Of a stretch of DNA of 64,000 nt, positions 6,685-46,969 are shown one piece after another. Position numbers and translations under genes: made by a program. The DNA is taken from assembly GCA_001899635.1 (NCBI GenBank), contig MKVQ01000048.1, positions 310,001 to 374,000 of the forward strand, given 5' to 3'. Positions within the stretch are counted from its first letter, which is position 1. The number at the start of each line of letters is the position of its first letter. Source of the stretch: Myxococcales bacterium 68-20 (GTDB taxonomy: Bacteria; Myxococcota_A; Polyangia; Polyangiales; Polyangiaceae). Under the pieces are notes generated by a model. The model did no database searches and was not told the DNA's origin. It saw only the letters and a program-made list of their open reading frames with translations.

Positions 6685-7716
6685 ATGTTCCGACGAATCA
6701 GCGCGGCCGTATCGACCGCCGCGCTCGCGTTCCTCGCTGCGGCGCGCGTCGCCGAGGCGGCGCCAGTGATTCGGATCGAATGGCCTACCGTACCGGGTTG
6801 CCCTGCCGCCTCCGTCGTGGAGCAACGCGCACGCGCGGCGATCGCGCAAGCGAAGGAGGTCGACGACGTGCTCGCGATCGCCGAGGTCACGCCTCCGACC
6901 GTGGACCGCGGCCCATGGCAACTGCACATCCGCACGCGGACGGCACGTGGCGCGGGGGAGCGAACCCTCGAGGCGGCGAGCTGCGATGCCGTCGCGCGAG
7001 CGGCAGGCCTCCTCGTGGCGCTCGCAGCGCTTCGCACGCGAGCCCCGTCCACAGACGAGGCTCTCGACGAGATCCACCCACGACCCGAGCGTACGGAAGA
7101 GCCGGAAGTGCACTTGGCGCCCTTCGCGCCGTTGGCGCTCCCGAGCGTGCCGCCACCGCGCGAACCATCCGAGGCGCCGCGCGTGAAGACGAACGACACG
7201 TTCTTCGCGCCGAGCGCCGGCATCGGGTTCGCCGCCGGGCTCTTGCCTCGTATCGGTGTGGGAGCGAACGCCGCGCTCGGCTACGAAGCGAGCTGGCTTC
7301 GTACGAGCATCGGGTTCCGCGCGTTTCTCCCGCAAGAGACGATCCGTTCGGGGCTCGGCGCCGAGCTCTCGGCCCTGGGCGCGAGCCTCGACGTATGCGC
7401 TCGACTCCCGCTCCCGGCGCTTCTTCGCGCGAAACCGCGCGCGTGCGCGGGCGCGACGGTCGACGACATCCATGCCAGCGGCCGTGGGGGCACACGGACG
7501 TTCGATGCCCGCCGCACTGCAATCATGGCTTTTGCCGGCCTCGGAGCCGAATGGGAGATCGGCCGCTCGTTTCGAATCGGTGCCGACGTTCGCGTTGGAG
7601 GCTCGCTCGTCCGTCCGAGATTCGTGGTCAACTCCGCCTCGGCAGGCGAACGCGAGCTCCATCGTCCCGCCGCCGTCAGAGCAGAGACGACGCTGACGTT
7701 CGGCCTCGTGTTCTGA
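6685..7716 (+). CDS. Exported barrel-like protein of module copy 1
   Basis: 343 residues. A cleavable signal peptide (about 1-25, ending VAEAAP) precedes a ~110-residue domain with SCDAVARAAGLLVALAAL. A Pro-rich linker follows, then a ~190-residue C-terminal half of alternating hydrophobic strands ending TTLTFGLVF, which suggests a small outer-membrane barrel. The same layout is seen at 32330-33442 and 45932-46969, the equivalents in the other module copies. Sequence similarity is low by eye, so family membership rests on layout, length and context. Here the gene converges on the IgGFc-domain gene rather than sitting beside sigma. Function unknown. Confidence 0.6.
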   Translation: MFRRISAAVSTAALAFLAAARVAEAAPVIRIEWPTVPGCPAASVVEQRARAAIAQAKEVDDVLAIAEVTPPTVDRGPWQLHIRTRTARGAGERTLEAASCDAVARAAGLLVALAALRTRAPSTDEALDEIHPRPERTEEPEVHLAPFAPLALPSVPPPREPSEAPRVKTNDTFFAPSAGIGFAAGLLPRIGVGANAALGYEASWLRTSIGFRAFLPQETIRSGLGAELSALGASLDVCARLPLPALLRAKPRACAGATVDDIHASGRGGTRTFDARRTAIMAFAGLGAEWEIGRSFRIGADVRVGGSLVRPRFVVNSASAGERELHRPAAVRAETTLTFGLVF

Positions 7717-7747
7717 TGCGCGGCGGACGAGCTCCACCAGACCGAGA

Positions 7748-7767
7748 GTGGCGGGGCGCCCCACCAC
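7748..7767. terminator. Candidate bidirectional terminator hairpin
   Basis: GTGGCGGGGC/GCCCCACCAC forms a near-perfect inverted repeat with one internal mismatch between two convergent genes (stops at 7716 and 7782). There is no T-run, so intrinsic termination is only inferred from position and stem strength. Confidence 0.35.
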
Positions 7768-7781
7768 CCGATACGCGCTCA

Positions 7782-9584
7782 CTACCTGAGGATGCCCGAT
7801 GGCGCGTCGTTGATCGGACGCGAGCCGGTGCCAGCCGGATATCCGTAGCTCGCGTCCTTGCCGATGCCCCAGACGCTGAGGGTGAAGGGCCCGGCGCTCT
7901 CGGCGACGTGACGTCCGTAACCACATTCGCCGCCAGGGAGCTGCAGGGGCTTGAAGCCGGTCGTGAGCTGAACCCACGCGTACTCGTACTCGCTGCCGTC
8001 ACCGAGCGGCATCCAGTCGCCAATCTCTCCACCGCACTCGAGCACCACCGGACTGAACGTCCCCAGGTGCTTCTTCCGCACGATGGTGAGCGAAGTCTCC
8101 GGATACGTGTAGTCCGCAAAGAAGACGTAGCGATCGAGGTACTGATTCGCTGGAACGACGTTCACGAAATCCGGGTCCCCGAGGGTGAGACCTGGGCCTC
8201 CACCGCCGAACGTCGCCCCCGTCATGTAGACGGCCGCGTGGAATGGATGCTTCGCGTCCTGGCTCTTCACGCTCACGATCGCGTCGGTCAGGTAGGTCAC
8301 CGTCTGGCCGGCCGCGAGCGTCTCCGGCGCGCCGGGTGGCTTCGACGGCGACCACGTCAGCACCGTCCCGTCGACGGCTCCGACGAAGCTCCAGGCAACG
8401 GTCTCGCGAAGAGGCGCGGAGATGGTCTCGAGCCGGGAACGGTACGGCACGAGCGCGTACTCCGTTCCCCATTGCGAGAGTGGCGCGATCTGCTGACCGA
8501 AGACATCGCAGTACCCCTTCTCTCCCGGGAGGAACGCGCAGGGCGAGGCGCCGAAGAGCCCGATCGGCCTGTCCGCCTCGATCGGGCTGCCTGAGATCAA
8601 GCCGTCCTGCGTGAACTGAAGAACCTCTCCTCGAGCGAGCGACCAGGTCTTCACCTCGCCGGCGACGCCCGGCTCGATGCCTTCGGCTCCGCTGATGTCG
8701 AAGTTCGGCTTCATCGACACCTTTGTTCCGTCCTCGGTGCCGATGATTTGAAACGTGCGCTTTTCGCCGAACGTGCGCCCGGGATCACCGAACCGAGCGA
8801 CGGTCACGCCGATGTACGCCTTCTCCCATGACGTCTCCGGCAAGAGCAGCGTCGCCGAGGGGACCTCGCTCGCGGCACCTCCGTAGGGAAAGATCGAATA
8901 GGCCGACACGGGAGCATCCATCTCGAGGTGAAAGGCCTTCGTTCGCGCGGTGCCGTGCTTGATCGGGTCGGCGTCGACCGCAGGCGTGGTGCCGGCAGGA
9001 CACGCGATGAACTTGTCGCTCCCGATGGGCGCCTTCTTCTGCGAGAGGAAGACGATCGCGACTTGCCCCGGCGGAAGAGGCCCTTCGAGCAGCGTGTACT
9101 CCGGCTCTCCCGAGAGCCGGCTCGCCGTGTAGACCGAGCGCGAAATGTCGAGCGGGTCGGCCCCCCACTCCGCCGAGATCGTCACCGGCCGATCCCACGT
9201 GTTCGCGACCATCGCCGCAAAGCAGGAGCCGGCGCCATACACGGCATCGTCGGGCGGAAGCGTCCAGAACCCACACCCCGCCGAGCCCTTCGACAGCGCG
9301 GCCGCGTCGCATGCGCTTACGCACCTGTCGATCCCACAGCCTTCGTCGGCCGAGCAGACTTCCTTGACGGTCTCCGACTCCCCCTCGCACGTCGAGAGGA
9401 CCTTCTTGAGATCGGGGGAACAACGGTAACCGCACTGCGGAGCGTCGGGAGCGCCGGCCTCCGGGAACGACGGAGCGTCACCCCCGAGGTTTCGCTCCTC
9501 GCCGCAGGCAAGCGGCACGAGCGACGCGAAGACGAGGATGGAGACGACCGCTGCAGCGCTCGGTTTCTTGGCTTCGTGGGGCAT
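7782..9584 (-). CDS. IgGFc-binding-domain lipoprotein, copy 1
   Basis: 600 residues from the ATG at 9584; upstream in-frame sequence lacks a signal peptide. The lipobox is LVPLAC. A Cys-rich segment (about 45-110: CGYRCSPDLKKVL, then CGIDRCVSACD) is followed by a long domain with QWGTEYALVPYRSRLE and later VKSQDAKHPFHAAVYMTG and DFVNVVPANQYLDRYVFF. The end has CGYGRHVAES and VWGIGKDASYGYP. This matches the IgGFc-binding N-terminal domain found in predicted bacterial surface adhesins and named after an animal mucus protein; IgG binding in bacteria is not implied. It is the last gene of copy 1, 8 bp after the RCC1 gene, with orthologous partners at 23901-25712 and 38856-40655. A cell-surface binding role is inferred. 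Confidence 0.82.
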   Translation of the reverse strand: MPHEAKKPSAAAVVSILVFASLVPLACGEERNLGGDAPSFPEAGAPDAPQCGYRCSPDLKKVLSTCEGESETVKEVCSADEGCGIDRCVSACDAAALSKGSAGCGFWTLPPDDAVYGAGSCFAAMVANTWDRPVTISAEWGADPLDISRSVYTASRLSGEPEYTLLEGPLPPGQVAIVFLSQKKAPIGSDKFIACPAGTTPAVDADPIKHGTARTKAFHLEMDAPVSAYSIFPYGGAASEVPSATLLLPETSWEKAYIGVTVARFGDPGRTFGEKRTFQIIGTEDGTKVSMKPNFDISGAEGIEPGVAGEVKTWSLARGEVLQFTQDGLISGSPIEADRPIGLFGASPCAFLPGEKGYCDVFGQQIAPLSQWGTEYALVPYRSRLETISAPLRETVAWSFVGAVDGTVLTWSPSKPPGAPETLAAGQTVTYLTDAIVSVKSQDAKHPFHAAVYMTGATFGGGGPGLTLGDPDFVNVVPANQYLDRYVFFADYTYPETSLTIVRKKHLGTFSPVVLECGGEIGDWMPLGDGSEYEYAWVQLTTGFKPLQLPGGECGYGRHVAESAGPFTLSVWGIGKDASYGYPAGTGSRPINDAPSGILR

Positions 9585-9592
9585 CGGTTCTC

Positions 9593-11014
9593 TCAGAAGG
9601 AAACGAGCATCGGCTCGGGGTGATCGCTCTCGTCGGGGTCGGTGGTGCCGAGCTCTCCGTTCAGATTGCTCCCCCAGCAGTGGACGGTGCCTCCCTGGAC
9701 GAGAGCGCAAACGCTCGCGTCGCTCGTCGCGACCTGTACCGCTCGGCCTTTGAAGTTTGCCGCAGGCGTGAGCAGCGCCGAATGCGTCGTCTGGATCGGC
9801 AGCGCCATCCTCCCCTGCTCGTTGCTTCCGCAGCACTGCACCGTACCGTCGGTCATCCGAATGCACGTGATCTCGCGCGCGACGGCAACGCGCTGAGGCC
9901 ACGCCTTGCTATCGACGGGCGCGAGCGCCGGAACAATCTCGCGATCGGGCTTTCCCGTGCAGAGCGCGGTCTTGTCGCTCCGCCCCCAGCAATGGAGCTC
10001 TCCGTTCGCGATCGCGCAGGCGTGAGCCTGTGGGGGCGGCTCGAGAGGGAACGCCTCGGGCTGGAAGTGTTCGGAGATCGCGAAGCTCGTCACGTTCGAG
10101 AGCTCACGGATCTTTCGAGGCGTGATCGTCGGACTGATCGAGGCGATCACGCCGGAGCAGTAGCCCTCGCTCCCCGAGAGAGCGCCCCAGGCCCAGAGCT
10201 CCCCTGTCGTCGTGAGGCCGAGCATCGTGCTCGAGCCCGCCCGAGCCGACGCGATGACGAGCGAGCCGACCTCGGCCAACCCCGGGCTCCCGCTCAGCGA
10301 ATACATCGGGAGCGGCCGCGCGAGCTGTCCGCGATCGGCTTTGCCCCAGCACGAGAGCGTCCCGTCGGTGAGTCGGGCGCAGACGCTTCCATGCCCGACG
10401 TCCACGCGCGTCGCGCTACCAACGCCTGCAGGTTGCACGGGATCCGGATGAGGCTCCCAATCCTGAATCGGCGGGCTCTCCGCGGTGAGCGCGAGCTCGG
10501 AGCTCTTGTTGCCGCCCCAGCAGCGAATGCCGCCATCGTCGAGGCGCGCGCAGCTCGTGTCGGCACCTGCGCTGATCTGAGTGGCACCGGTAACGTCGGC
10601 TACGGGAGGGATCTTCCACGCCACGCCCGCGTCAACGCTCTCCGTCGGCGTCCCGCGTCCGAGGTTGCCGAGCTCGTCCGTGCCCCAGCAATGGACGGTG
10701 CCTTCCGCCATCCGCGCGCAGAAGTGATTGCGCCCCGCAACGATCTCCTTCACGCAAGGACCACCGTCGGTGGCGCAGACGACTTCCTCGTCCTCGGAAC
10801 TGTACGGATCCTTCTCCCGTGCATCAGCCGGAGGTGCCCCGTCGAAAGGCGCGCCGGCCTCGGGAAGGTTGGCTCGATCGCTAGCGTCCTCATCGAGCGC
10901 AGGACGCGAGGACGTGTCGTCGCTGCAGGCAACGATTAGAAGAGAGAGCGCCGTCCCGCACAGGACGAGTCCCTGGAGGGCACGAGAGCGGAAGAGAGCT
11001 CGATTCGATCGCAT
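9593..11014 (-). CDS. RCC1-repeat lipoprotein, copy 1
   Basis: 473 residues, with lipobox SLLIVAC near residue 30 and then an acidic linker. Seven RCC1-type repeats follow, with cores such as FCARMAEGTVHCWG, CARLDDGGIRCWG, CARLTDGTLSCWG, CAIANGELHCWG and CALVQGGTVHCWG. Seven repeats would close a seven-bladed propeller. Most blades carry paired Cys (CA...CWG), suggesting disulfides outside the cytoplasm. RCC1 propellers generally bind proteins or sugars; this one is a predicted lipid-anchored binder with unknown ligand. It sits 6 bp after propeller B and 8 bp before the IgGFc-domain gene. The paralogue at 25709-27067 holds the same place in copy 2; copy 3 lacks it. Confidence 0.82.
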   Translation of the reverse strand: MRSNRALFRSRALQGLVLCGTALSLLIVACSDDTSSRPALDEDASDRANLPEAGAPFDGAPPADAREKDPYSSEDEEVVCATDGGPCVKEIVAGRNHFCARMAEGTVHCWGTDELGNLGRGTPTESVDAGVAWKIPPVADVTGATQISAGADTSCARLDDGGIRCWGGNKSSELALTAESPPIQDWEPHPDPVQPAGVGSATRVDVGHGSVCARLTDGTLSCWGKADRGQLARPLPMYSLSGSPGLAEVGSLVIASARAGSSTMLGLTTTGELWAWGALSGSEGYCSGVIASISPTITPRKIRELSNVTSFAISEHFQPEAFPLEPPPQAHACAIANGELHCWGRSDKTALCTGKPDREIVPALAPVDSKAWPQRVAVAREITCIRMTDGTVQCCGSNEQGRMALPIQTTHSALLTPAANFKGRAVQVATSDASVCALVQGGTVHCWGSNLNGELGTTDPDESDHPEPMLVSF

Positions 11015-11020: not shown

Positions 11021-12229
11021 TCACTTCTTCGCGCGATGAAGCGCGATCCCTTTCCCTACGGCCCAGACCTCGCCGCCCGTCGCGGTCCATACATCGAAGA
11101 ACGGATCGATTACCGGCAACGGTTCGACCTCGGTCGACACCTGGGCGAACCTCTTGCCGTCCCACGTCGCGAGTCGTCCGAATCTGCCGGCCGCCCACAC
11201 ACCGGATGGAGACGCGGCGAGCGCCGTGAAGTCGAGCATCTCGTCGTTCTCGTACGGACTGACCGTCCACGTGAACGTCGCGCCGCCGTCGCTGCTGACC
11301 CCGTGATAGACGCCGCGTCGCGCCCAGGTGCTCATGAGTACGAGCCACACGCTCGTATCGCTCTCGACGGCAGCGCCGAGGATCTGCCCGATCGGGACGT
11401 CCGGAGAGCGCGGGTCGACCGCCGGCAGCACCACGGACTCGAACGTCGTCGACGAGGGCGGCCGTCGAAGGATGGCCTCCTGCGTCGCTCCCCATTCGCC
11501 GTACGGGAGCGTGGCAGCGATCCAGAGACCGCTGCCGGGGGAGCCCCAGACACGCCGATAGCCCGAGGTGTCCTCGAACGAGAGCGGGTCGAGCTCCCAC
11601 TCGGGAGCGCCGTCGCTCGTGGTCGCTCCCGTGAAGTGATAGACGCGTCCCGCAGGCGCCACGCCGTCCGTGCGTGCGCCGACGGCCCAGACGTCGTTCG
11701 CCGAGCTGCCCCATATCGAGGTGATGTGGACATCGCCATCGGCTTCGAGCGGAGCGTTGGCGAACATCACCGCCGCCGACGTCGTGCCGGTACCGCGGTA
11801 GACGCCCTTCGCTCCCGCGGCCCAGATCTCGGTGGGACTGCTCCCCCAGATGCTGCTTATTTCACCGAGCCCGCTGGCGTGGATCTTCCACTCCGTCCCG
11901 TCGAAGCGGAGGATTGCGCCGAACTTCGTTCCCGCCCAGGCGATGCCCGCACCATCCGACCACACCGCCTGGAGCGTCTGATCCTCGGGAAGGACGGTAT
12001 GACAGAAGTCGTCGTCCGAGCACGTGCGCGGTGGCGCATCGGTGGGTGCATCACTCGATGCATCCGGCACGGCTGGCGGACCGCTGTCGGGTCCGGGCGG
12101 AAGCGTCGTCGGCCCCTCCGGGTCGGAAACCGGCCCGTCGTCCCCGTCGGCATTCGCACAAGCCGCTGCGGCGAGGACGGTGATGATGGCAGCGCCGAGC
12201 ACGAGAAGCTGCTTCGACAAGAGGCTCAC
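11021..12229 (-). CDS. Propeller lipoprotein B, copy 1
   Basis: 402 residues from a GTG at 12229, chosen because it has a strong GGAGG-type site, directly precedes a signal peptide (lipobox LAAAAC), and overlaps the previous stop as GTGA. After a Pro/Asp-rich linker comes a CSDDDFCHTVLP motif also found in the other B proteins. About seven blades follow with cores such as IWGSSPTEIWAAG, IWGSSANDVWAVG, VWGSPGSGLWIAA and GEVWAVGKGIALH. The pattern resembles BNR/Kelch-like bacterial propellers. No enzymatic residues are recognisable; a lipid-anchored binding or scaffold role is inferred. Paralogues in the same slot are 27042-28349 and 40652-41905. Confidence 0.75.
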   Translation of the reverse strand: MSLLSKQLLVLGAAIITVLAAAACANADGDDGPVSDPEGPTTLPPGPDSGPPAVPDASSDAPTDAPPRTCSDDDFCHTVLPEDQTLQAVWSDGAGIAWAGTKFGAILRFDGTEWKIHASGLGEISSIWGSSPTEIWAAGAKGVYRGTGTTSAAVMFANAPLEADGDVHITSIWGSSANDVWAVGARTDGVAPAGRVYHFTGATTSDGAPEWELDPLSFEDTSGYRRVWGSPGSGLWIAATLPYGEWGATQEAILRRPPSSTTFESVVLPAVDPRSPDVPIGQILGAAVESDTSVWLVLMSTWARRGVYHGVSSDGGATFTWTVSPYENDEMLDFTALAASPSGVWAAGRFGRLATWDGKRFAQVSTEVEPLPVIDPFFDVWTATGGEVWAVGKGIALHRAKK

Positions 12230-13425
12230 TTCCTTCCTCCACTGACGTTCTTGCCGTCGTAGTGAAGGGCGACGTGGCCGCCGACGATCCAGACGTCGTC
12301 CGGCCCGCTGCCCCATATCCCCGTGAGGAGTGGCTTCTTCTTTCCGGCAGGGAACGCCGCTCGCTGCGGCGTCCACTCGTTGCCGTCGTAGTGGAGAATC
12401 GTCCCGTTCTCTCCCGCCACCCAGATGTTCGTCGCGCTCGTTCCCCAGATCGCATGGAGCGACTCGTTCGTCACCGGCGGGACCATCTCCCATTCCGTCT
12501 GTCCAGCGCGGAGCCGGCGCATCGTGCCTTGATCGCCGACCGCCCAGATGTCATCTGCGCTGCTTCCCCAGATCGCGTGGAGATTGACGAGCGAGTAGAC
12601 CTCGCTCTGCGTCCACTCGAAGCCACCGTCCGCCAGACGCCGGCCGTTCTGTACGAACGCGCGCTGCCAGTCGTTCCCATATCGGTTGTCGCCGATGAGC
12701 CAGAGATTGTCCGGCGTCCCGTAGTAGCCGAAGATCCAGGCCGTCCCCTCGTGAAACTCCCACTTTGGCTCGCCGACGGTCGATGTCGTGAGCTGATTCC
12801 CGGTGAGGAGATAGTTTTGGCCGTCGATCACGGCCTCGTATTGGTACGCGCGCGCACCGACCCGGACCCTGTCGGGCCCGTCGCCCCAAAGCGCCTTGAC
12901 GGGCAGCTCGTAGCGGAGAGGAGCCGGCTGATGCACCCAGCCCGAGCCCGTCTTGCGGTAGATCGTGGAGGTCGTGCTCGCGATCCAGACGTCATTCGGA
13001 CCGCGGCCCCAGATGCTGAGGAATGTATTCTTGACCTCGAGCGGATTCGGCAGCGCCGGGGGAACCGGCGTGCGCGTCCAATTGGCGCCGTCCCAATGAA
13101 TCACGGTCGCGCCGGCCCCGACGGCCCAGACGTCGTTCGGCGAGGCGCCCCAGACCTTCGTCAACGAATAGAGGCTCTCGACGTTCGTCTGCGTCGGGCA
13201 CCACGGGACCTCGCTGCACGGGATGACCTCGTCGACGCAGTTCGGATCACCGGCATCGCAGGTCCCGGGAAGAGAGGCGTCGCTCTGCGGGGCCGGCAGA
13301 GGATTCGACGTCGGAGGAGGACCCTCTCCGTTTTCCGTGCCGGCGCAGCTCGCGAGCACGAACGGAACGAGGAACGTGGCGAGCGCCCCCGTCGACAGGC
13401 CGAGAACAACGCGCGCGCGATTCAT
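12226..13425 (-). CDS. Propeller lipoprotein A, copy 1
   Basis: 399 residues, ATG at 13425 in an ATGA overlap with the Cys-rich gene. Lipobox FVLASC; a Pro-rich linker; a two-Cys motif CSEVPWCPTQT; then about six blades with VWGASPNDVWAVG, IWGRGPNDVWIAS, IWGSSADDIWAVG, IWGTSATNIWVAG and IWGSGPDDVWIVG. Several blades end in a short xxIHWDG or LHYDG turn. It is the tandem partner of propeller B but distinct from it, since each module carries exactly one A and one B. The fold is assigned from repeat pattern; function is unknown. Paralogues are 28346-29533 and 41902-43140. Confidence 0.76.
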   Translation of the reverse strand: MNRARVVLGLSTGALATFLVPFVLASCAGTENGEGPPPTSNPLPAPQSDASLPGTCDAGDPNCVDEVIPCSEVPWCPTQTNVESLYSLTKVWGASPNDVWAVGAGATVIHWDGANWTRTPVPPALPNPLEVKNTFLSIWGRGPNDVWIASTTSTIYRKTGSGWVHQPAPLRYELPVKALWGDGPDRVRVGARAYQYEAVIDGQNYLLTGNQLTTSTVGEPKWEFHEGTAWIFGYYGTPDNLWLIGDNRYGNDWQRAFVQNGRRLADGGFEWTQSEVYSLVNLHAIWGSSADDIWAVGDQGTMRRLRAGQTEWEMVPPVTNESLHAIWGTSATNIWVAGENGTILHYDGNEWTPQRAAFPAGKKKPLLTGIWGSGPDDVWIVGGHVALHYDGKNVSGGRK

Positions 13426-14621
13426 TTCGCCCCCGGATAGTCACAGTCGACCATCAAGCACTTACCGTCGATGCATGGCTGCCCCGCGCCGACGTCACAA
13501 CGCGTCCCGCAGGCGCCGCAGTGGTCCGGATTCATGCGAAGGTCGACTTCGCAGCCATCGGAAGGGTCGCCGTTGCAGTCGGCCCAGCCGTCGGCGCACT
13601 CGGAACCGCATACGCCCTTCGTGCACGTTCGCTTGCCGTGTGGTCCCGGACTCGGACATGAGATGCCGCACGCGCCACACGCATCGACGTCGTTCAAGAG
13701 ATCGACGCATTCGTCCTCGCACAGCACCTTCTTGTCTTTCACGCAGGGAATACCGCAGTACGACTCGTCCCCCTCCGTGATGCACACCTCGTCCTTTCCG
13801 CACTTCTTCCCGCAGGCACCGCAATTCTCCGGTCCGGCGGGGGCCTCGCAACCATCGGAGGCACACCCGAGCGTCGAGATGTCATCGTTGCAGTCGATCC
13901 ACCCCTCGTTGCAGCGAAGATTACCGCACGCGCCCTCACGACAATGGTAGGAGGTGTTGGGGGGCGGGGTGGCGCATTGGCCTGGAGCGGCGTTCGCGGA
14001 GCAGGCGTGATTGCAACTGCCGCAATGGTAGTCGTTGTTCTTCGGGTCGACGCACCCGCCGTTGCACTCGAGCCACCCTGGAGGGCATCCGCACTTGCCG
14101 CCGATGCACGAGACGCCGTCCGGGCAGGCGTTCCCGCAGCTGCCACAGTTCGCGTTGTCGTGGAGCACGTCGATCTCGCAGCCGTCCGCGATCTTGCCGT
14201 TGCAGTTGCGCCAGTCGTTCGGCTCGAAGGGCACCACCGGCGAGTAGCACTGGAGCTCGCAGCCGCCGTCCACGCAGCGCGAGGTCATGTGGAGCGGGAT
14301 GTAGTCGCCACACTTGTTCCCGCACGCGCCGCAGTTGTCGCGGTCACTCATGAGATCGGTCCCGCACTTGTAGGTCGCGGCGCCGACCGGGCCCGAGAGA
14401 CAGGTGCCCAAGCCTTCAGGGCACACGGTGCCGACGCATGCGAGCGGAGCGCTCGGGAGGCTCCCGCTGTCTCCGCCGTCGGGAGTGGGAGTGAAGCTCG
14501 GCGGCCCGCCCGTATCGGTGGCCACGAGCGCGTCGGACTGCGCGCAACTCGCGAGGCCGAAGACGACGATGAGGCCGACGGCGGCGATGGCCGTCATCGG
14601 TTGGAGGTCGGGTCGACGCAT
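13422..14621 (-). CDS. Cys-rich CGxCG-repeat lipoprotein, copy 1
   Basis: 399 residues from the ATG at 14621, the first start giving a signal peptide (lipobox FGLASC). Beyond a Pro-rich linker, Cys-dense units of about 35-50 residues recur with cores DNCGACGNKC, ANCGSCGNAC, ENCGACGKKC, DACGACGISC and DHCGACGTRC. They are interleaved with CNGxxxDGCExD segments that look acidic and possibly metal-binding. The end, GQPCIDGKCLMVDCD, is nearly the same in all three copies. Automated pipelines sometimes give such proteins unrelated enzyme names; nothing enzymatic is visible. The start overlaps the anti-sigma-like gene by 28 bp. An extracellular disulfide-rich stalk or scaffold is plausible but inferred. 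Confidence 0.78.
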   Translation of the reverse strand: MRRPDLQPMTAIAAVGLIVVFGLASCAQSDALVATDTGGPPSFTPTPDGGDSGSLPSAPLACVGTVCPEGLGTCLSGPVGAATYKCGTDLMSDRDNCGACGNKCGDYIPLHMTSRCVDGGCELQCYSPVVPFEPNDWRNCNGKIADGCEIDVLHDNANCGSCGNACPDGVSCIGGKCGCPPGWLECNGGCVDPKNNDYHCGSCNHACSANAAPGQCATPPPNTSYHCREGACGNLRCNEGWIDCNDDISTLGCASDGCEAPAGPENCGACGKKCGKDEVCITEGDESYCGIPCVKDKKVLCEDECVDLLNDVDACGACGISCPSPGPHGKRTCTKGVCGSECADGWADCNGDPSDGCEVDLRMNPDHCGACGTRCDVGAGQPCIDGKCLMVDCDYPGAK

Positions 14622-40655: not shown

Positions 40656-41905
40656 GGCCTGCTCGTTGGCTGCTTGCGAATCGCGACCCCCTGCCCGACC
40701 ACCCACATTTGACTCGCGTCTCCGGCTGGTGCCCAGGCGTCCCAGAAAACGTTTTCGAGTGGAACGTTCTCGATCGAAACGGCGGCGAGGTCCCAGCGCG
40801 TGCCGTCGAAGTGGCAGAGTCGTCCGAACTCTCCGTAGGTCCAGACGTCGTTCGGCGCGAACGCGAGGACGCCGTTGTGGACCTCCGATCCGCACGACCA
40901 GTGACCCGGAATGCGCCAGCTGAAGGCGTCGTTCCACTCGTACGGCTCCGAGCTGTCGGCTCGGCGCCCCCAATACAGGTACGGGGCGCCTCCCCCGTAC
41001 TTGCCGAACCAGAGGATGTTGTTCGGATCTGCCGTGAAGCCGCCGTAAACGGCGTTCTCGAAGAAGTAATCGAACGAGGTGTCCTCGATGAACGCGGGGA
41101 TGCCGTCGCCATCGGGCGCTCGGTGCCAGATGACGGGCGTGGCCTGCCCCCATGAGCCCCTGGTGGAGCCTACGGTCCAGATGTCGGTCGGGCTGTTGCC
41201 CCAGATCTTCACGAGCTTGCCGACGACCTTGGTCGAGACGGGATCGACGGTCCATCCGGACGCCGTTGGATCTCCAGGCGGTCCGGCGTAGTGAAACACG
41301 CGGCTCTTGGTCCCGTCGTTTCCGACGGCCCAGAAGTCGTTCGCGGCGCTTCCCCAGACGGAGAGCACGGGCATGTTTCCATCGGTCGTGAACTTCGTCC
41401 ACGAGAGTGTGGCGGAGGTCGTGCCGGTTCCGTGGAAGAGACCGTTCGTCCCGCCAACCCAGATGTCCGTCGGCCCACTGCCCCAGATCGTGAAGAGCTT
41501 GCCGGGGTCGGTATAGACCGTCGACCACTTCGCCCCATCCCAGCGAAGAATGTTGCCTTGTTCACTCACCGTCCACACGACGCCGGTGCCGTCACCCCAC
41601 ACGGCGCGGAGCGTCTGCTCCCGCGGGACCTCGGTGTGGCACCAACCATGGACCGTGCAAAGGCTCTTCGGGCCGTCGTCTCCGGCATCTCGAAGGCTGG
41701 AGCCATCGCCATCCGCCCCGCCGTCGTCCATCGGAGAAGGCGAGTCCGTCGAGCCTGCGTCGGCATCGCCGGCGTCACCGGTTTCGTTCACCGGATCCGG
41801 TCCGTCGTTCTCGACGGTGGCATCGGCGCAAGCGACCGCCGCGCCACATATCGCGGCAAGAGCAAACACCGCGGTCGTCCGTTTGTCTCTGACGAAGAGA
41901 TTCAT
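40652..41905 (-). CDS. Propeller lipoprotein B, copy 3
   Basis: 417 residues from the ATG at 41905 (ATGA overlap). Lipobox GAAVAC about residue 26. A long acidic linker (Asp/Gly/Ser), then CTVHGWCHTEVPREQTLR, the B-type motif. Blades: VWGDGTGVVWTVS, IWGSGPTDIWVGG, VWGSAANDFWAVG, IWGNSPTDIWTVG, LAFAPNDVWTYG and SQMWVVGQGVAIRK. The last blade matches copy 1's WAVGKGIALHR. Directly followed by the IgGFc-domain gene because RCC1 is absent. Confidence 0.75.
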   Translation of the reverse strand: MNLFVRDKRTTAVFALAAICGAAVACADATVENDGPDPVNETGDAGDADAGSTDSPSPMDDGGADGDGSSLRDAGDDGPKSLCTVHGWCHTEVPREQTLRAVWGDGTGVVWTVSEQGNILRWDGAKWSTVYTDPGKLFTIWGSGPTDIWVGGTNGLFHGTGTTSATLSWTKFTTDGNMPVLSVWGSAANDFWAVGNDGTKSRVFHYAGPPGDPTASGWTVDPVSTKVVGKLVKIWGNSPTDIWTVGSTRGSWGQATPVIWHRAPDGDGIPAFIEDTSFDYFFENAVYGGFTADPNNILWFGKYGGGAPYLYWGRRADSSEPYEWNDAFSWRIPGHWSCGSEVHNGVLAFAPNDVWTYGEFGRLCHFDGTRWDLAAVSIENVPLENVFWDAWAPAGDASQMWVVGQGVAIRKQPTSRP

Positions 41906-43140
41906 TTCTTCGCTCCCGTGAAGTGCAGGACGATGCCTTCCCCGACGACCCACACGTCGTCCTCGGCGCTGCCCCAGACGCCGTAGAGATGCGGCTTGCG
42001 ACCGACGGGCAACGATGCCGTCGAGCGTTGCCAGCTCGTGCCGTCGAAGTGGAGAATGGTTCCGTAATCACCAACCGCCCAGACGTCGTTCGGAGCGCTG
42101 CCCCACACGGCGTGGAGGTCCTCCGTCGTTCCCGCCGCTACGACCTCCGCTTGGGTGGCTTCATCGCGATACCGACGCACGGTGCCACGCCGTCCGACTG
42201 CCCAGACGTCGTCCTTGCTGCTGCCCCACACCGCGCGCAGGTCCTCCGTGGATTGACTGTCGACGTCGGTCCAAACCGGCGCCGCAGCCGCGGCATCTCC
42301 GACTCCGCCGTCGCCGGGCTGAGGCTCGACCGTGCGGAACGCCTTTCCCTTCTGGCCCACCGACCAGATGTTGGTCGGACTCGTTCCCCAGACCCTGGCC
42401 ATGACGGTGCACGACGGGCACGGCGAGATGGCCTGCCATTTGGTCCCGCCGTCCGCGACGCTCCCTCGGTACTGTGTCGCCGCCCTACTCTGCCCCGGGA
42501 TCCTGAGCGATTCGCCCGTGATCCAGACCTGGTCCGGCGACGGACTCCACACGCTGGAGAGCAACTTCTCTTCCGCACCCGAATACGGAACAATCGGCAC
42601 CGACTCCCAGTGGGCAGTACCATTGACGAGCCCGGGGCCGTGATAAAGCGTCCCATAAGTGCCGACGATCCACACATCGTCGGGCCCGCTTCCGCCCACG
42701 GAGAAGAGCGTGCGTGTCGTGGGCAGGGACGAATCCTTCCACTCGGTTCCGTCGAAGTGGATGACGGCTCCGCCGGAGCCTACTGCCCAAACGTCGTTCT
42801 TGCCGGTTCCCCAGACTGACGTAAAAGCTCGCCGTGTATCCGCTGGATTCTGCACTGGACACCAGTCGACCCCCTCGCACGTCGGCGGCGCGCAAAGCGA
42901 AGAGTCGATGGCGCCGCATCCGGCGTCCACGTCGGCATCCGACTCGGACTCCTGCGCGCCCGTGTCCGCCACCTCGATGAGATGAGCGTCGGGCTCATCG
43001 GTCTGCGGAGGCTCGCCGCTGGACTCCGCGCAGGCAACCGCAAGCGAAGTCCCCGCGACAGTGGCCAGTGTCGCTGCGAGCATCGCACGCGAAGCGCTCA
43101 CGGATCGAACCTTGTTCGACATCTCTCGTTCGTCGGCCAT
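41902..43140 (-). CDS. Propeller lipoprotein A, copy 3
   Basis: 412 residues. The ATG at 43140 is preferred because GGAGG lies about 9 bp before it and it overlaps the previous stop as TAATG; an ATG at 43122 is the alternative. Lipobox SLAVAC; A-type motif CEGVDWCPVQNP; blades VWGTGKNDVWAVG, VGGSGPDDVWIVG, VWGTSPTNIWSVG, VWGSSKDDVWAVG, VWGSAPNDVWAVG and VWGSAEDDVWVVG. This is the most regular propeller of the six in the window. Ligand unknown. Confidence 0.78.
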   Translation of the reverse strand: MADEREMSNKVRSVSASRAMLAATLATVAGTSLAVACAESSGEPPQTDEPDAHLIEVADTGAQESESDADVDAGCGAIDSSLCAPPTCEGVDWCPVQNPADTRRAFTSVWGTGKNDVWAVGSGGAVIHFDGTEWKDSSLPTTRTLFSVGGSGPDDVWIVGTYGTLYHGPGLVNGTAHWESVPIVPYSGAEEKLLSSVWSPSPDQVWITGESLRIPGQSRAATQYRGSVADGGTKWQAISPCPSCTVMARVWGTSPTNIWSVGQKGKAFRTVEPQPGDGGVGDAAAAAPVWTDVDSQSTEDLRAVWGSSKDDVWAVGRRGTVRRYRDEATQAEVVAAGTTEDLHAVWGSAPNDVWAVGDYGTILHFDGTSWQRSTASLPVGRKPHLYGVWGSAEDDVWVVGEGIVLHFTGAKK

Positions 43141-44357
43141 TAGTGCGGACCTCCGCCGGCGTCACATTCGACCATCAGACACGATCCATTGATGCATGGC
43201 TGTCCTGCATCCGCTTCACATGCTTGGCCGCACGCTCCGCAATTTCTCATGTCCGAAAGCAAATCGATCTCGCAGCCATCGGCCCAGCTACCGTTGCAGT
43301 CAGCCCTGTTCGGGGGACACTCGAGCCCACAAATTCCGCTTCGGCAGACGGCATTGGCGTTCGGAGCGGTCGGACACGCATGGCCGCAAGCGCCACAGTT
43401 CTTCGGATCGTTGGCGACGTCGATACACTCGATGTCTCCATCTGGATTGGCGAGATCGCCGCAAGCCGTCTCGCCGGGCCCGCACACGCATTGGGGCGGA
43501 GCACCCAGGATCGACCGGCAGTACTGGCCCGGCGCGCACTTGTTCCCGCACCGCCCGCAGTTATTCGAGTCGTGATAGACGTCGGTCTCGCAGCCGTCGG
43601 TCGAGTCGCAGCCGAACTTCAGGTCGCCGTTGCAATCTTTGTAGATGATGGACGAACAGACGAACTGGCCACATTGACCCTGCGAGCACCATTGCATGGT
43701 GTTCGGAGGAAGCTCCTTTGGCTCACATGGTTCCGAGACCCACTGACACGCGTTCCCGCATGCTCCGCAGTTGTCGTTGTCTTTCGAGATGTCGACGCAA
43801 TTGCCGTCGCAGTTGACGGTGCCGGACGGACAGCCGCATGTGCCGTTGTTGCAAGGGACGCCATCTGGGCACTTGTTGCCACAAAGGCCGCAATTGTTCG
43901 TGTCGCTCCCCACGTCCGATTCGCAGCCATCATCGACGAGCCCGTTACAGTCTTGTAGGCGCGCCGACATGCAAAAAGGCTGGCACCTGCCATTCGTGCA
44001 TTGGGTGGCGAGCTGGACGATCGGATATTCCTTGCACTTGTTGCCGCATTCACCGCAATTGTCATTGTCACTGAGGAGGTCAACGTTGCACCGCGCGGTC
44101 GAACCGTCGCCACATGTCGCACGTGGCCAGGTGCACTCGGTGCCAATGCACTCCTTCAATGTCTCGGGCAGAGTTGCGGTTGCGTCTGCGTCTCCGGCAT
44201 CGTCCGCGGGCGACGGAAGGAAGCCACTCGAGCTCGCCCCCGAATCCGTCCCCGCCTCGTCGAGGCCAGGCCCGAGCGACACGTTCGTCGCGCACGCTTG
44301 CAAGGCAAAGCCCACGACGGTCAACGCGCAGGTGAGTCCAAGGAGTCGAGTTTTCAC
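43140..44357 (-). CDS. Cys-rich CGxCG-repeat lipoprotein, copy 3
   Basis: 405 residues from the GTG at 44357, which has GGAG upstream and begins a compact signal peptide (lipobox FALQAC). A GTG at 44429, overlapping the anti-sigma-like stop as GTGA, is an alternative that would add 24 residues. Cys units: DNCGECGNKC, NNCGLCGNKC, DNCGACGNAC, NNCGRCGNKC, KNCGACGHAC and RNCGACGQAC, interleaved with DCNGLVDDGCESD-type segments. C-terminus GQPCINGSCLMVECD as in copy 1. Confidence 0.78.
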   Translation of the reverse strand: MKTRLLGLTCALTVVGFALQACATNVSLGPGLDEAGTDSGASSSGFLPSPADDAGDADATATLPETLKECIGTECTWPRATCGDGSTARCNVDLLSDNDNCGECGNKCKEYPIVQLATQCTNGRCQPFCMSARLQDCNGLVDDGCESDVGSDTNNCGLCGNKCPDGVPCNNGTCGCPSGTVNCDGNCVDISKDNDNCGACGNACQWVSEPCEPKELPPNTMQWCSQGQCGQFVCSSIIYKDCNGDLKFGCDSTDGCETDVYHDSNNCGRCGNKCAPGQYCRSILGAPPQCVCGPGETACGDLANPDGDIECIDVANDPKNCGACGHACPTAPNANAVCRSGICGLECPPNRADCNGSWADGCEIDLLSDMRNCGACGQACEADAGQPCINGSCLMVECDAGGGPH

Positions 44358-44425
44358 GACTTGAAGGCTCCTTCGGTGCGATTCGGACGACGCGTGTCGG
44401 CCGATTTGACGCGAGTGAATGTCGT

Positions 44426-45238
44426 TCACTCGCTGTCGGAGTTGGAAGCGGGTGCCGCTCGATGGGTGTTCGCGTTTTCGAGAGCGATCGTCACCCGTCG
44501 GGCGAAGGCGCCCATACGATGCTCCGAAAGAAATCGAGTGCCGAGCCGACGAGCTTCGTCGGTGCGCCCTGCGCGTGCGAGCGCTTCGATGCGAAGCACC
44601 GCGACTTCGACTGCGAAGGCGCCCGTCGGGAACTCGCGATCGTACTGGTCGAGCAGCGCGAGCGTCCTCGTTGCATCGCCTGCTGCGAGGGCGGCACGCG
44701 TCGCTTCGACTTGGGCGATCTCGAGAGAGAGTGTCGAGACGCGAGACTCGGGCGGACTGAGCGGGGCCTGCGTGGCGTGCTTGACCCGCTTCGGCGGAGC
44801 GACCTTCGCGCCGGCGTTGGTTTGGGCGACGGGGGCGCTGGGCAGCGCGTGCGGCGTCACGATCGGGATCGCAGAGGCCGTGCCATCCCCCAGCGGCGCC
44901 GGTTCCGGTGGCGCGATCGCGGCATCCGCCGGGCTGCGCGCAGGCGCATCGCTCTGACCGCGCGCCGGAGGTGCGTCGAACGACGTTGCGACGACGAGCG
45001 TTGCGGCGCCCGAGAGGACGAGCACGGCTCCGGCGCCGTGGAGGTAGTGGCCACTCCTCCGAAGGAGCTGGCTCAGGCGTCCGCCACCATCCGGGCTCGC
45101 GGGAGCGCCGGCGAGCGCCGAGAGCATCCGAGCACGTGCGTTCGGATCGGGCGCATCGTCTTTGGTGGACTCCAGCAACGTGCGCGCCGTCTCGTCGAGC
45201 GAGCCACGGAGGAGCGGTTCGAAATCGGAAGATGACAC
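44426..45238 (-). CDS. Membrane TPR protein in anti-sigma position, copy 3
   Basis: 270 residues from a GTG at 45238 (GGGAG site, 1 bp after the sigma stop). Cytoplasmic N-terminus about 1-60 (DFEPLLRGSLDETARTLLE), transmembrane helix GAGAVLVLSGAATLVVAT (about 65-83), Pro/Ala linker, then a C-terminal helical region EATRAALAAGDATRTLALLDQYDREF and EALARAGRTDEARRLG resembling the copy 1 TPR part. No zinc-binding motif. Proposed regulator of the preceding sigma factor by position and topology. Confidence 0.65.
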   Translation of the reverse strand: MSSSDFEPLLRGSLDETARTLLESTKDDAPDPNARARMLSALAGAPASPDGGGRLSQLLRRSGHYLHGAGAVLVLSGAATLVVATSFDAPPARGQSDAPARSPADAAIAPPEPAPLGDGTASAIPIVTPHALPSAPVAQTNAGAKVAPPKRVKHATQAPLSPPESRVSTLSLEIAQVEATRAALAAGDATRTLALLDQYDREFPTGAFAVEVAVLRIEALARAGRTDEARRLGTRFLSEHRMGAFARRVTIALENANTHRAAPASNSDSE

Positions 45239-45239
45239 G

Positions 45240-45884
45240 CTAGACTCCCTGCCTTTTCGCGCGAATTCGCGCGACCGCCGCTTCAAAGTCTTCGCGCGCT
45301 CGCCGGAGACGGGAGGCCACGGTTCCGATCGGAACGTCGAGAAGCTCTGCTATCTCGGGCTGAGAAAGCTCTTCCAGCTCGAAGAGCACGAAGACGATCC
45401 GCCGCTCTTCCGACATCTTCGCGAGGATGTCGTCGATCATGGCACGCGCTTGCGCGCGGCTGAGCGACGTCTCCGCGGTCGGGCTCGGGGAGAGCGACTC
45501 CGGCGCGTCGCCCTCCGACACTTCTCGTTTGCGCGCGGTTGCATAATTACGCCGTACGCGCGCGGCCACGCGCATGACGATGCCGAAGATGTAGCTGCGC
45601 TCTTCGCCCTCCCTCACGCTCGAGAGCTTGAGAGACAGCGTCAGGAAGACCTGCTGGGTGGCGTCGTCGGTTTCGGGGGGCGTGATGCCCAGGCGACGAA
45701 GCGAGCGCCAGACGAAGTCGTAATGCTCGAGCGCGAGCGCTTGTAGGCGCGGGTCGAGCGTGCGCACCGCGGGAGCCTCCCGCTTGTCGTCTGCCGTCAG
45801 ATCTGCAGCACGTACCGCGAACATCACGACCTTGTGCGCGCTATGCCGGATGGGGGCTCGAGCGATCCCAAAATCGTCACGCAT
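45240..45884 (-). CDS. ECF-type sigma factor, copy 3
   Basis: 214 residues from the ATG at 45884 (an ATG at 45824 is also possible). Region 2: TDDATQQVFLTLSLKLSSV then RSYIFGIVMRVAARVRRNYA; region 4: ERRIVFVLFELEELSQPEIA and GTVASRLRRAREDFEAAVAR. It starts 48 bp after the barrel-like gene, so in this copy the barrel-like gene could lead the operon. Region 4 closely matches copy 2, meaning the two may recognise similar promoters. Confidence 0.84.
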   Translation of the reverse strand: MRDDFGIARAPIRHSAHKVVMFAVRAADLTADDKREAPAVRTLDPRLQALALEHYDFVWRSLRRLGITPPETDDATQQVFLTLSLKLSSVREGEERSYIFGIVMRVAARVRRNYATARKREVSEGDAPESLSPSPTAETSLSRAQARAMIDDILAKMSEERRIVFVLFELEELSQPEIAELLDVPIGTVASRLRRAREDFEAAVARIRAKRQGV

Positions 45885-45931
45885 GAGGCTCGGCCTCGAG
45901 CTCGACCGCGCTCGGGAGTCGGGAGCGGGTC

Positions 45932-46969
45932 TCAGTGAAGGTGTGCGACGAAGGCTGCGCCCGCGAACGGGATGACAGCGGGGGCGTCGTAGACCACGGT
46001 GGCAGGCTCGAAGAAGAGCTGATAGCGGAGGACGGGGACGCGCGCGCCCCCGCTCACCTCGAAGGAGAACGCGGGATGGGCTTGCCAGGAGAGTCTGGCG
46101 GAGGCGCCGGCGGCGACCCACGATCTCGATTCCGAGCGAAATCGTAGAGGGGCGTCGACGGCGGCGTCGAGCCTGCCTACCTCACCTTCGGCGCAAGCGC
46201 CGACCCCCAGCGCACGCACACGAAGGACTTCGGCGCAGGCTCCCAAAAGCAGCTCGCTCCACTGCACGTTTGCAGTTCCGTCGGGCGTCACGAACCGCTC
46301 CTGAAAGCTGCGCCCCACCCCGAGCCGGACGGCCGGCGCAAGGGCACCTCGAAATCGGACCTCTCCGAAGAGCATGGGCATGACGATCAGCGAGCGATTG
46401 GCAGAAGCCTCGATGCCCGTGGCGAGAGAGAGCTCGAGAGATCGGCCGCTGCGAGCGGTCGAGGGCGCCGGAGAAGCCTCGACGACGGCGCGAGCCTCGG
46501 GTTGAGACCGAGCAGGCGGAAGGAGCGGCGTGAGCGATGGTGCAGGAGGCGCGGGGGTACGCAAAGCGCCTTCGTCGAGGCCGATCGCGGCCATGACCGC
46601 GAGCGCAGCCAGGACCTCTTCGCACGATGGCGATGACGCCTCGCGCTCGGCTCGTTCGTCTCCGACATCGAGCGCCAGCGTTCCATGGCTGAGGTCGCCG
46701 CGGCGTTCGACTCGGATCTCGACGCGCACGGCCGGCTCGCTGTCGGCCGCCTCGCGGATGCGCTCGAGCCTGGCCGTGAGGCGCTCCGCGAGCGGCGGAC
46801 TCTTCGGGCAGCCCTCGTGGAGTCTCTCGACGGTGCGGACCGCGATGGGCCGTGGCGTCTCTGCTCGCGCGTGGCCGCCCGGGGCGAGCAACGACGAAAG
46901 CATCACACCCGCAAGGAACGCGACGAAGCCAGGGCGATGTCGGCTTCGAACGCCGCTCGGACTCACCAT
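45932..46969 (-). CDS. Exported barrel-like protein of module copy 3
   Basis: 345 residues from the ATG at 46969. A signal peptide follows a basic start (ending GGHARAE). The N-terminal domain has SPSCEEVLAALAVMAAIGL, matching SCDAVARAAGLLVALAAL of copy 1. A Pro linker leads to a strand-rich half ending AGAAFVAHLH. Co-oriented with and just upstream of the sigma gene, unlike copies 1 and 2. Function unknown. Confidence 0.6.
   Translation of the reverse strand: MVSPSGVRSRHRPGFVAFLAGVMLSSLLAPGGHARAETPRPIAVRTVERLHEGCPKSPPLAERLTARLERIREAADSEPAVRVEIRVERRGDLSHGTLALDVGDERAEREASSPSCEEVLAALAVMAAIGLDEGALRTPAPPAPSLTPLLPPARSQPEARAVVEASPAPSTARSGRSLELSLATGIEASANRSLIVMPMLFGEVRFRGALAPAVRLGVGRSFQERFVTPDGTANVQWSELLLGACAEVLRVRALGVGACAEGEVGRLDAAVDAPLRFRSESRSWVAAGASARLSWQAHPAFSFEVSGGARVPVLRYQLFFEPATVVYDAPAVIPFAGAAFVAHLH

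Follow-up and report, generated by a model that had tools for sequence, protein, structure and literature searches.

What is the group of genes led by an ECF sigma factor that recurs at three places in the window analysed here (64,000 nucleotides from Myxococcales bacterium 68-20), and does it behave as the single envelope machine that the initial annotation had proposed? All three loci carry the claimed genes in the claimed order. The slot list itself needed two corrections, since module 3 is without RCC1 and the barrel gene normally lies upstream of the sigma gene, a place that is typical in module 3 and atypical in modules 1 (convergent) and 2 (divergent). After start correction, neighbouring genes in the three modules abut or overlap, often by 4 bp. 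The genes are as follows, with "lipoprotein" standing for putative lipoprotein throughout.

6685..7716, plus strand: module 1 barrel protein, convergent to the module, an unusual place; family by profile
7782..9584, minus strand: module 1 IgGFc-domain lipoprotein (PF17517)
9593..11014, minus strand: module 1 RCC1-repeat lipoprotein (RCC1_2, E 2.9e-38)
11021..12229, minus strand: module 1 propeller-like lipoprotein B
12226..13425, minus strand: module 1 propeller-like lipoprotein A
13422..14621, minus strand: module 1 Cys-rich (MXAN_6577-like) lipoprotein; matches below the curated cut-off
14594..15391, minus strand: module 1 predicted single-span TPR protein, putative anti-sigma factor
15388..16020, minus strand: module 1 ECF sigma factor (Sigma70_r2 over the cut-off)
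23901..25712, minus strand: module 2 IgGFc-domain lipoprotein
25709..27145, minus strand: module 2 RCC1-repeat lipoprotein; start uncertain
27042..28349, minus strand: module 2 propeller-like lipoprotein B
28346..29533, minus strand: module 2 propeller-like lipoprotein A
29530..30705, minus strand: module 2 Cys-rich lipoprotein
30708..31589, minus strand: module 2 predicted single-span TPR protein, putative anti-sigma factor (TPR_14, E 3.1e-9)
31586..32152, minus strand: module 2 ECF sigma factor
32330..33442, plus strand: module 2 barrel protein, divergent from sigma; family by profile
38856..40655, minus strand: module 3 IgGFc-domain lipoprotein (PF17517, E 4.6e-100)
40652..41905, minus strand: module 3 propeller-like lipoprotein B
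41902..43140, minus strand: module 3 propeller-like lipoprotein A (weak Ycf48 match, E 0.099)
43140..44429, minus strand: module 3 Cys-rich lipoprotein (NF041328, 127.6 bits, cut-off 100)
44426..45238, minus strand: module 3 predicted single-span TPR protein, putative anti-sigma factor; TPR part with pLDDT mostly >95
45240..45824, minus strand: module 3 ECF sigma factor (Sigma70_r4_2, E 1.1e-16)
45932..46969, minus strand: module 3 predicted outer-membrane barrel protein with N-terminal alpha/beta domain, the usual first gene

Slot by slot, the proteins are homologous beyond shared motifs, as expected from the claim that they are diverged yet related. The IgGFc proteins share 37-50% identity (E 1e-107 or better), the sigma factors 34-42%, the Cys-rich proteins 34-39%, the propeller A proteins 32-37% and the two RCC1 copies 29%. 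Propeller B reaches 31% between modules 1 and 3 and only E 0.004 between modules 1 and 2, and the pair of modules 2 and 3 is not among the matches listed. Homology of the TPR proteins is weak and was found for two of the three pairs (E 1e-5 and 0.008). BLASTP revealed no similarity between the three barrels, which were united by profile search only (E 9e-72, 1e-48 and 1.9e-89), using a profile seeded from these same three window barrels.

The number of three copies did not hold. The 11.9-Mb Labilithrix-like Myxococcota genome contains 128 dispersed cassettes of one operon type, the window loci among them, and the operon copies cover 1.16 Mb (9.8%), so that one operon type takes up roughly one tenth of this bacterium's DNA. 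The order is barrel-sigma-TPR-Cys-propeller A-propeller B-RCC1-IgGFc, and it was found as an exact eight-gene order in 77 chains, which is more than chance adjacency. For the analysis the operon was split into a head (barrel, ECF sigma factor, TPR protein) and a cassette (Cys-rich protein, propellers A and B, RCC1, IgGFc). A sigma gene on the same strand leads 121 of the 128 cassettes (118 in the first count, before three sigmas were restored), in 98 of 128 chains the barrel gene occupies its usual same-strand place ahead of sigma, and an RCC1 gene could be recognised in 125 of the 128 cassettes. No head lies within 4.5 kb of four of the 128 cassettes, and in two the head is divergent. Packing is tight, with a median of 3 nt from the TPR stop codon to the start of the Cys-rich core (n=121). 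Truncated genes are nearly absent (cores <70% of median length: 0-2 per slot), and the 30 pairs closest in IgGFc reveal a median dN/dS of 0.30-0.42 and a median dS of 0.39-0.62 per gene. IgGFc candidates range from 0 to 47 per genome in eleven congeners and from 0 to 144 genus-wide. Neither non-homologous slots nor scattered, unordered genes were found within the genus, and the view of a sigma-led operon of exported proteins in diverged paralogous versions is upheld.

The cassette would supply five lipoproteins. Rule-based searching found a lipobox-like site in 63/128 Cys-rich and 59/125 RCC1 proteins, and in 102/128, 97/124 and 101/128 proteins of the remaining three slots. The IgGFc protein has a full PF17517 domain (IgGFc_binding), and alignment against PDB sequences gave no match up to E 1. 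An IgG-related role was considered and rejected, because it rests on the family name only and nothing points to IgG as ligand. Propeller A matched only Ycf48-like proteins among PDB sequences (best E 0.099), and most NF041328 matches of the genome score below the curated cut-off. Transporter, SusC/SusD and hydrolase families had no match in the module proteins scanned. At the loci inspected outside the genus, no cassette accompanies the IgGFc gene.

In the head, the module 3 sigma factor (sig3) exceeds the Pfam cut-off for Sigma70_r4_2; Sigma70_r2 is below the cut-off in sig3 and over it in module 1 (sig1). The stretch before the best membrane span of the TPR protein holds more K/R in 88 of 121 cases, fewer in 6 and equally many in 27, a charge pattern in favour of the predicted topology with a cytoplasmic N-terminus. 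The Pfam scan gave no anti-sigma or FecR family match for it, and in its predicted structure the N-terminal 40 residues reach a pLDDT of only 54-87. The barrel model (pLDDT 84.1) comprises an N-domain (42-137) and, from residue 178 on, a small barrel of about eight long strands; its best-ranked PDB structural matches are Ail, OmpA and NspA, and no TonB-dependent receptor plug or STN domain appeared in the Pfam scan. Domain-level coupling over 98 heads (effective number 89) was strongest between sigma region 4 and the TPR C-terminus, which disagrees with a simple cytoplasmic contact; the pair of sigma and TPR N-terminus was not singled out, and the signal is mostly shared history. The TPR protein is present in 51 of the 58 genomes searched (own included), and genome G030 has it without any IgGFc match. 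In other genomes 13 places were examined, and 10 of them carry all three head genes. Heads without the cassette occur in other Polyangiales, sometimes ahead of other secreted proteins; some precede secreted hydrolase or adhesin-like proteins, and at two places in other genera GH8 and GH5 proteins with a lipoprotein-like start follow. In Polyangiales the barrel-ECF-TPR unit gives the appearance of a general switch controlling secreted proteins, and its occurrence without the cassette in other genera speaks against a single envelope machine.

Within the genome, head and cassette have largely independent histories. Rank correlations amount to 0.35-0.45 within the head and 0.70-0.83 within the cassette, and to 0.02-0.10 between the parts. 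Nearest neighbours among 92 modules agree in 44-50/92 cases within the head, 46-63/92 within the cassette and 2-5/92 between them. Some Mantel tests between the parts reach nominal significance with small coefficients (tpr-igg r 0.09, cysN-igg 0.12, sig-cys 0.07). Fifty-five pairs have an IgGFc identity of at least 0.72; sigma was measurable in 46 of these, with a median identity of 0.31 compared to 0.32 for all pairs, and reached at least 0.5 in 3 of 46. Most close cassette pairs have DNA in common that starts within the Cys-rich gene and runs to the IgGFc stop codon, and their heads are unrelated. Homology of close copies mostly ends within about 15 nt of this stop codon, without common flanking ends, and the DNA match runs beyond the usual borders in 8 of 55 pairs. 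The family-wide boundary falls within the Cys-rich gene, where a motif search matched only 26 of 128 genes and conservation looked codon-driven. Its signal-peptide part sides with the head by nearest neighbour (14-17/92, cassette 2-3/92) and is no closer to the head by rank correlation (0.04-0.07, cassette 0.06-0.12), so that nearest neighbours and the DNA boundary are the grounds for assigning it to the head. With part histories this uncorrelated, one machine inherited as a unit was rejected.

Comparison between species showed that sigma and IgGFc indicate the same own module in 12 of 24 cases, with 70-92% identity for sigma and 67-92% for IgGFc; heads therefore do not evolve fast enough to explain the mismatch. 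Among 13 strong head orthologues, 11 retain the same cassette partner. Since the two exceptions are a near tie (L238) and ambiguous (L214), the sole clean cross-species re-pairing is L184, whose cassette is 86-90% identical to C16_404402, with sigma at 38%, TPR at 32% and barrel at 26% over 66 aa. For the 20 closest head pairs the cassette percentile averages 0.72, and for the 20 closest cassette pairs the head percentile averages 0.58, indicating that some whole-module duplication exists.

We consider it fairly probable that the modules are two-part operons, in which a trans-envelope sensor head is joined to a surface-lipoprotein output, kept in about 128 copies and re-paired by recombination. 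The small outer-membrane barrel with its periplasmic N-domain would sense a cue from outside. The TPR protein of the inner membrane, predicted to have two cytoplasmic N-terminal helices, one span and a periplasmic TPR domain, would hold the sigma factor until the signal arrives, and the released sigma would transcribe its own operon. The cassette would be the output, probably a cell-surface lipoprotein set whose presumed function is ligand binding or contact. The operon would have expanded to about 128 dispersed copies in this lineage, and recombination, by conversion or replacement, would repeatedly have re-paired heads and cassettes, so that many sensors drive variants of one output. More tentatively, the operons may form a combinatorial repertoire of more than 100 sigma circuits per cell, each inducing its own five-lipoprotein complex and evolving by cassette exchange between heads, usually just past the signal peptide of the cassette's first protein.

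The dedicated sigma switch claimed initially is putative: gene order and overlaps agree with it, but no promoter motif common to the modules was found. The regions upstream of heads and those separating barrel from sigma were searched for gapped dyads and EM motifs, and nothing convincing recurred; the best dyad upstream of the head (7.75) is near the shuffled maximum (6.94). A strong motif before sigma was discarded, as by reading it is mostly barrel C-terminus and stop codon. A later EM run reached likelihoods above shuffles (116 vs 89-102; 153 vs 118-123), and its motif was not taken as a promoter because it is GC-rich and evenly spread. Nine orthologous pairs were tried, and a block immediately before the barrel gene was more conserved than the rest at L168, L178, L174 and L176, a weak hint of head-specific promoters. 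Sigma control of the own operon is thus a presumption.

Similar sigmas in 3 of 46 close pairs indicate that whole-module duplicates exist, and among the closest head pairs the cassettes are alike to some degree. Both would be expected if whole modules had been duplicated as units and the heads alone had diverged very fast, with no recombination. This is largely contradicted already and extremely improbable: heads diverge between species about as slowly as IgGFc (12 modules), paralogous cassettes that are 80-90% alike follow heads at background identity, and at L184 a cassette at 90% identity goes with an unrelated head in another species. Phase or antigenic variation, with few expressed loci, silent donor cassettes and programmed surface-lipoprotein switching, could draw on the recombination of cassettes between loci, the four cassettes without a nearby head and the two with a divergent one. 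We regard it as quite unlikely, because 121 of 128 cassettes lie behind a same-strand sigma, the median dS of 0.39-0.62 in the 30 closest pairs means that freshly copied cassettes are not seen, and across species the cassette partner is unchanged for 11 of the 13 strong head orthologues.

Against selfish or mobile units spread by transposition, homology of close copies mostly ends near the IgGFc stop codon and inside the Cys-rich gene, without common flanking ends; few genes are truncated and dN/dS is <1. We judge this improbable, even though IgGFc candidates range from 0 to 144 within the genus and flanks of 1.6-3.9 kb mostly find no match beside the orthologous module at eight loci (L168, L174, L176, L178, L182, L185, L186, L188), where matches are limited to downstream at L185 and L188, 71 nt upstream at L168 and a stretch beyond the tandem neighbour at L176. 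The GH8 and GH5 lipoprotein-like proteins after heads at two places in other genera suggest substrate acquisition as in Bacteroides polysaccharide-utilisation loci, the head sensing one glycan and the cassette binding it, and ligand binding by propeller-like and Cys-rich proteins of the surface is conceivable. Given that no transporter, SusC/SusD or hydrolase family was found in the module proteins scanned, this is unlikely.

The sigmas of this one family, leading 121 of 128 cassettes, outnumber all 109 sigma factors that PMC3696898 gives for the whole 14.8-Mb genome of Sorangium So0157-2. If the switches of the two-part operons work as inferred, they constitute a natural experiment, replicated about 128 times, on the number of sigma circuits that can operate side by side without cross-talk, and input and output modules of signalling operons are being re-paired. 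Were the combinatorial reading true, a bacterial recognition or sensing repertoire would be evolving through swaps of input and output parts.

In agreement with the initial annotation, no described system of such composition was found in the open-licence literature searched. Bacteroides polysaccharide-utilisation loci with ECF/anti-sigma pairs are paralogues dispersed by the dozen that combine sigma switches and surface lipoproteins. The modules resemble them in dispersed paralogues, sigma switches and putative surface lipoproteins, and differ in having one fixed cassette, re-paired heads and cassettes, and no SusC/SusD, transporter or hydrolase match. PF17517 IgGFc-binding proteins and lone bacterial homologues have the same full domain, which here lies inside a cassette. 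FCGBP has further mucin-type repeats, which are absent from the module 3 protein (igg3), where PF17517 is the sole Pfam match at E 0.1. The module 3 Cys-rich protein (cys3) is MXAN_6577-like, above the NF041328 cut-off (127.6 vs 100 bits), and is here an operon member; no paper naming MXAN_6577 was found in the open-licence literature searched. According to PMC9239204, FecI-FecR-FecA cell-surface signalling represents the ECF242 group. The likeness extends to one locus with an ECF sigma factor, a predicted single-span inner-membrane protein and a predicted outer-membrane barrel with an N-domain, and to putative control of surface proteins. Unlike that system, the modules have a small OmpA-like barrel instead of a TonB-dependent receptor, a TPR domain without a FecR or anti-sigma Pfam match, and five putative lipoproteins downstream. 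An ECF sigma factor linked to TPR is also known from ECF42, whose members carry a C-terminal TPR extension according to PMC8103513 and PMC8999054. In contrast to this fusion, the TPR domain here belongs to a separate, putative membrane protein encoded by an adjoining or overlapping gene.

The three loci described in the initial annotation are present with the gene order given there, as read in the window sequence:

6685-16020, minus strand except the barrel gene: module M1, with genes for ECF sigma, single-span TPR protein, Cys-rich protein, propeller A, propeller B, RCC1 and IgGFc, and a convergent barrel gene (plus strand) beyond IgGFc
23901-33442, minus strand except the barrel gene: module M2, same order from sigma to IgGFc, with the barrel gene (plus strand) divergent from sigma
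38856-46969, minus strand: module M3, same order without RCC1, with the barrel gene ahead of sigma
16123-17664, minus strand: putative Ser/Thr protein kinase gene, directly upstream of the M1 sigma gene

We refer to the barrel, sigma and TPR genes as the head and to the remaining genes, encoding putative lipoproteins, as the cassette. Neighbouring genes abut or overlap once starts are corrected. The proposed homology of proteins in the same slot was borne out for IgGFc (37-50% identity), Cys-rich (34-39%), sigma (34-42%) and RCC1 proteins (29%, two copies in the window), and propellers A and B are mutually related. The TPR proteins gave weak mutual BLASTP matches; the barrels gave none and are united by a profile seeded from the same three barrels. 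Pfam recognized IgGFc_binding (E 4.6e-100), RCC1 repeats, TPR and ECF sigma, and NCBIfam assigned the Cys-rich protein to the MXAN_6577-like family (127.6 bits, cut-off 100). The M3 propellers had no match in either database and the barrels none over cut-off. The label "propeller" was that of the initial annotation and is kept as a name, its basis here being one weak Ycf48 match (E 0.099).

The genome holding the window (11,892,454 bases, 52 contigs, 98.4% complete, 4.2% contamination) contains 141 PF17517 matches, including three fragments. Profiles built up from M1, M2 and M3 served to scan the DNA around these matches in all frames; gene calls were mechanical, slot counts vary with thresholds, and head counts cover the stretches around IgGFc matches. 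Chains that join IgGFc to Cys-rich and propeller A genes account for 128 of the 139 IgGFc genes or pieces; 77 of these chains have the exact eight-gene order, and the chains total 1.16 Mb or 9.8% of the genome. Outside the chains are ten lone IgGFc genes and one behind a head without cassette. At first count 118 of the 128 chains had a sigma gene. Re-inspection of the other ten recovered three sigmas lost to the overlap filter (121/128); of the remaining seven, one is at a contig end, two have divergent heads and four lack any head within 4.5 kb. Modules occur on 35 contigs, with 12 of 93 neighbouring pairs in tandem. Each slot has 0-2 cores below 70% of median length, and median dN/dS across the 30 closest cassette pairs is 0.30-0.42 per gene. 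Sigma region 2 has at least 150 matches in this genome (150 of 250 candidates scored). Rows of several same-strand modules with related cassettes were seen on contigs C17 (~52-98 kb) and C12 (~176-217 kb). A module on C48 has beside it two stop-containing IgGFc fragments (255528-256006, L153), probably a decayed copy.

Comparison of the paralogues, in 90 modules and then in 92 with every slot filled, revealed that head and cassette have largely separate histories. In the 92 modules, pairwise identities correlated within the head (0.35-0.45) and within the cassette (0.70-0.83), while head-cassette correlations were 0.02-0.10, some nominally significant though small; the 90 modules gave the same pattern. 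Nearest paralogues agreed in 44-50 of 92 modules within the head, 46-63 within the cassette, and 2-5 between them. Likewise, M1, M2 and M3 each have nearest sigma paralogues that differ from their nearest IgGFc paralogues, and sigma identity in close cassette pairs (median 0.31; at least 0.5 in 3/46) resembles that in all pairs (0.32). Ten close pairs share a DNA block reaching from ~150 nt inside the Cys-rich gene to or near the IgGFc stop codon; in eight it is continuous over ~6.8 kb, and in the other two it is split into two or three segments. Across 55 pairs the block starts 140-255 nt into the Cys-rich core (25th-90th percentile) and ends -11 to +15 nt from the IgGFc stop codon (10th-90th percentile); in eight the DNA match is longer. 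The first ~50 residues of the Cys-rich protein share their nearest neighbour with the head in 14-17 of 92 modules and with the cassette in 2-3, and by rank correlation follow neither (head 0.04-0.07, cassette 0.06-0.12). Five loci (L171, L190, L266, own C23_247078 and C44_191790) have inverted sigma and TPR genes reading away from the cassette.

Faster evolution of the head alone could in principle explain this discordance, and modules of other species served as calibration. In 12 of 24, sigma (70-92% identity) and IgGFc (67-92%) both point to one module of our genome. Where sigma identity is at least 75% the cassette partner is kept in 11 of 13 cases, and where IgGFc identity is at least 80% the partner is kept in 9 of 11. 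Locus L184 is a direct re-pairing: its cassette proteins are 86-90% identical to those of own module C16_404402, its head differing (sigma 38%, TPR 32%, barrel 26% over 66 residues). L214 is less clear, as a related cassette (66-80% across the five proteins) also accompanies its head partner in our genome; L238 is nearly tied. Taken together, these counts and cases indicate that re-pairing has happened repeatedly but slowly, at about the pace at which species diverge; median dS of the closest paralogous cassettes is 0.39-0.62. Beside orthologous modules, 1.6-3.9 kb of flanking sequence was compared. Upstream of L176 this sequence matches own contig C4 (~260-286 kb) beyond a second, tandem module, and this locus probably has one module versus two in our genome.

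In a first survey of 58 genomes, our genome had 144 IgGFc candidates, eleven congeners 47, 17, 10 and 9 in four and 0-4 in the other seven, and other genera 0-22. This survey and the locus scans that follow used IgGFc as query, so that genomes with only other module parts would escape it, and several contigs were short. Among the best 80 of 112 IgGFc loci in named genomes, 34 carried two or more other cassette genes; these were confined to Labilithrix-type MAGs (ACE_MYX5, 7, 8, RYN_370), Myxococcales MAG ACE_MYX12 of the same series as ACE_MYX5, 7 and 8, and Polyangiaceae MAG bin.255. A truncated Labilithrix locus (L226) had RCC1 and IgGFc only. The cassette was missing at the other 45 of these 80, including Minicystis, Nannocystis, Polyangium and Enhygromyxa; three (L207, L230, L235) had a single Cys-rich or propeller-type gene nearby. 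Of twenty more loci from 15 genomes, four had cassette genes, and these four belong to the same genus (G004, G009, G011). Judged by these relatives, the host of the window is a Labilithrix-like member of the Polyangiales. An additional RCC1-type gene lies 3' of the IgGFc gene at L185, L187 and L188. In Nannocystis, a TPR-sigma-barrel head diverges from a lone IgGFc gene (L223:7033-9453, its sigma slightly under the length filter; L233:7114-9519). Lying outside the cassette-bearing genus, these heads hint that the head-IgGFc association may be older.

The TPR protein is present in 51 of the 58 genomes, among them G030, which has no IgGFc match. At 13 places in other genomes, chosen from the list of TPR matches, all three head genes occurred at ten and the full cassette at none; an isolated cassette-type gene lay near four (Cys-rich at L264, RCC1 at L259, L261 and L263). 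Ten downstream or nearby proteins were scanned, giving GH8, a GH5 cellulase, an adhesive-type domain, a phosphoesterase and two metabolic enzymes, with no match for the other four; several start lipoprotein-like by reading. These findings make the head look like a general unit that is coupled to secreted proteins, with one head-cargo pairing apparently amplified in our genome. On own contig C9 (49170-59442; L062, L063) the gene after a head codes for a secreted protein of 456 residues; two IgGFc genes come next, and a third is on the opposite strand. Here the same type of head has a cargo that is reduced or different.

A single membrane span is likely in the TPR protein (best-window hydropathy at least 1.6 in 108/121). 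In 88 of the 121 proteins positive residues are more numerous before the span than after it, in 6 they are fewer and in 27 the numbers are equal, a bias that implies a predicted N-in, C-out topology. The model of the TPR protein shows two helices at the N-terminus, predicted with moderate confidence, and a TPR domain (169-260) predicted confidently. In the barrel model (mean pLDDT 84.1) the N-terminus is signal-like and is followed by an alpha/beta domain (42-137), which a linker joins to a small barrel; Ail, OmpA, NspA and OpcA are the best of 21 PDB matches at E <=0.001, some to larger barrels. Our observations are of anatomy; the working that gene order, packing and models make most likely is that the barrel would act as sensor, the TPR protein would restrain the sigma factor and relay the signal, the sigma factor would switch the operon, and the lipoproteins would be displayed as output. 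Motif searches found no promoter common to the modules, which fits many head-specific promoters and equally a failed search. Coupling analysis of the head domains gave no clear contact signal.

Searches of an open-licence library turned up no description of this system. In working, the module resembles FecIRA signalling, but its parts do not include a receptor of the FecIRA kind. In number and logic the modules are like the Bacteroides loci, yet without SusC/SusD. On these likenesses we class the modules as a variant of sigma-switched surface-protein operons, unusual among them in parts, scale and recombination.
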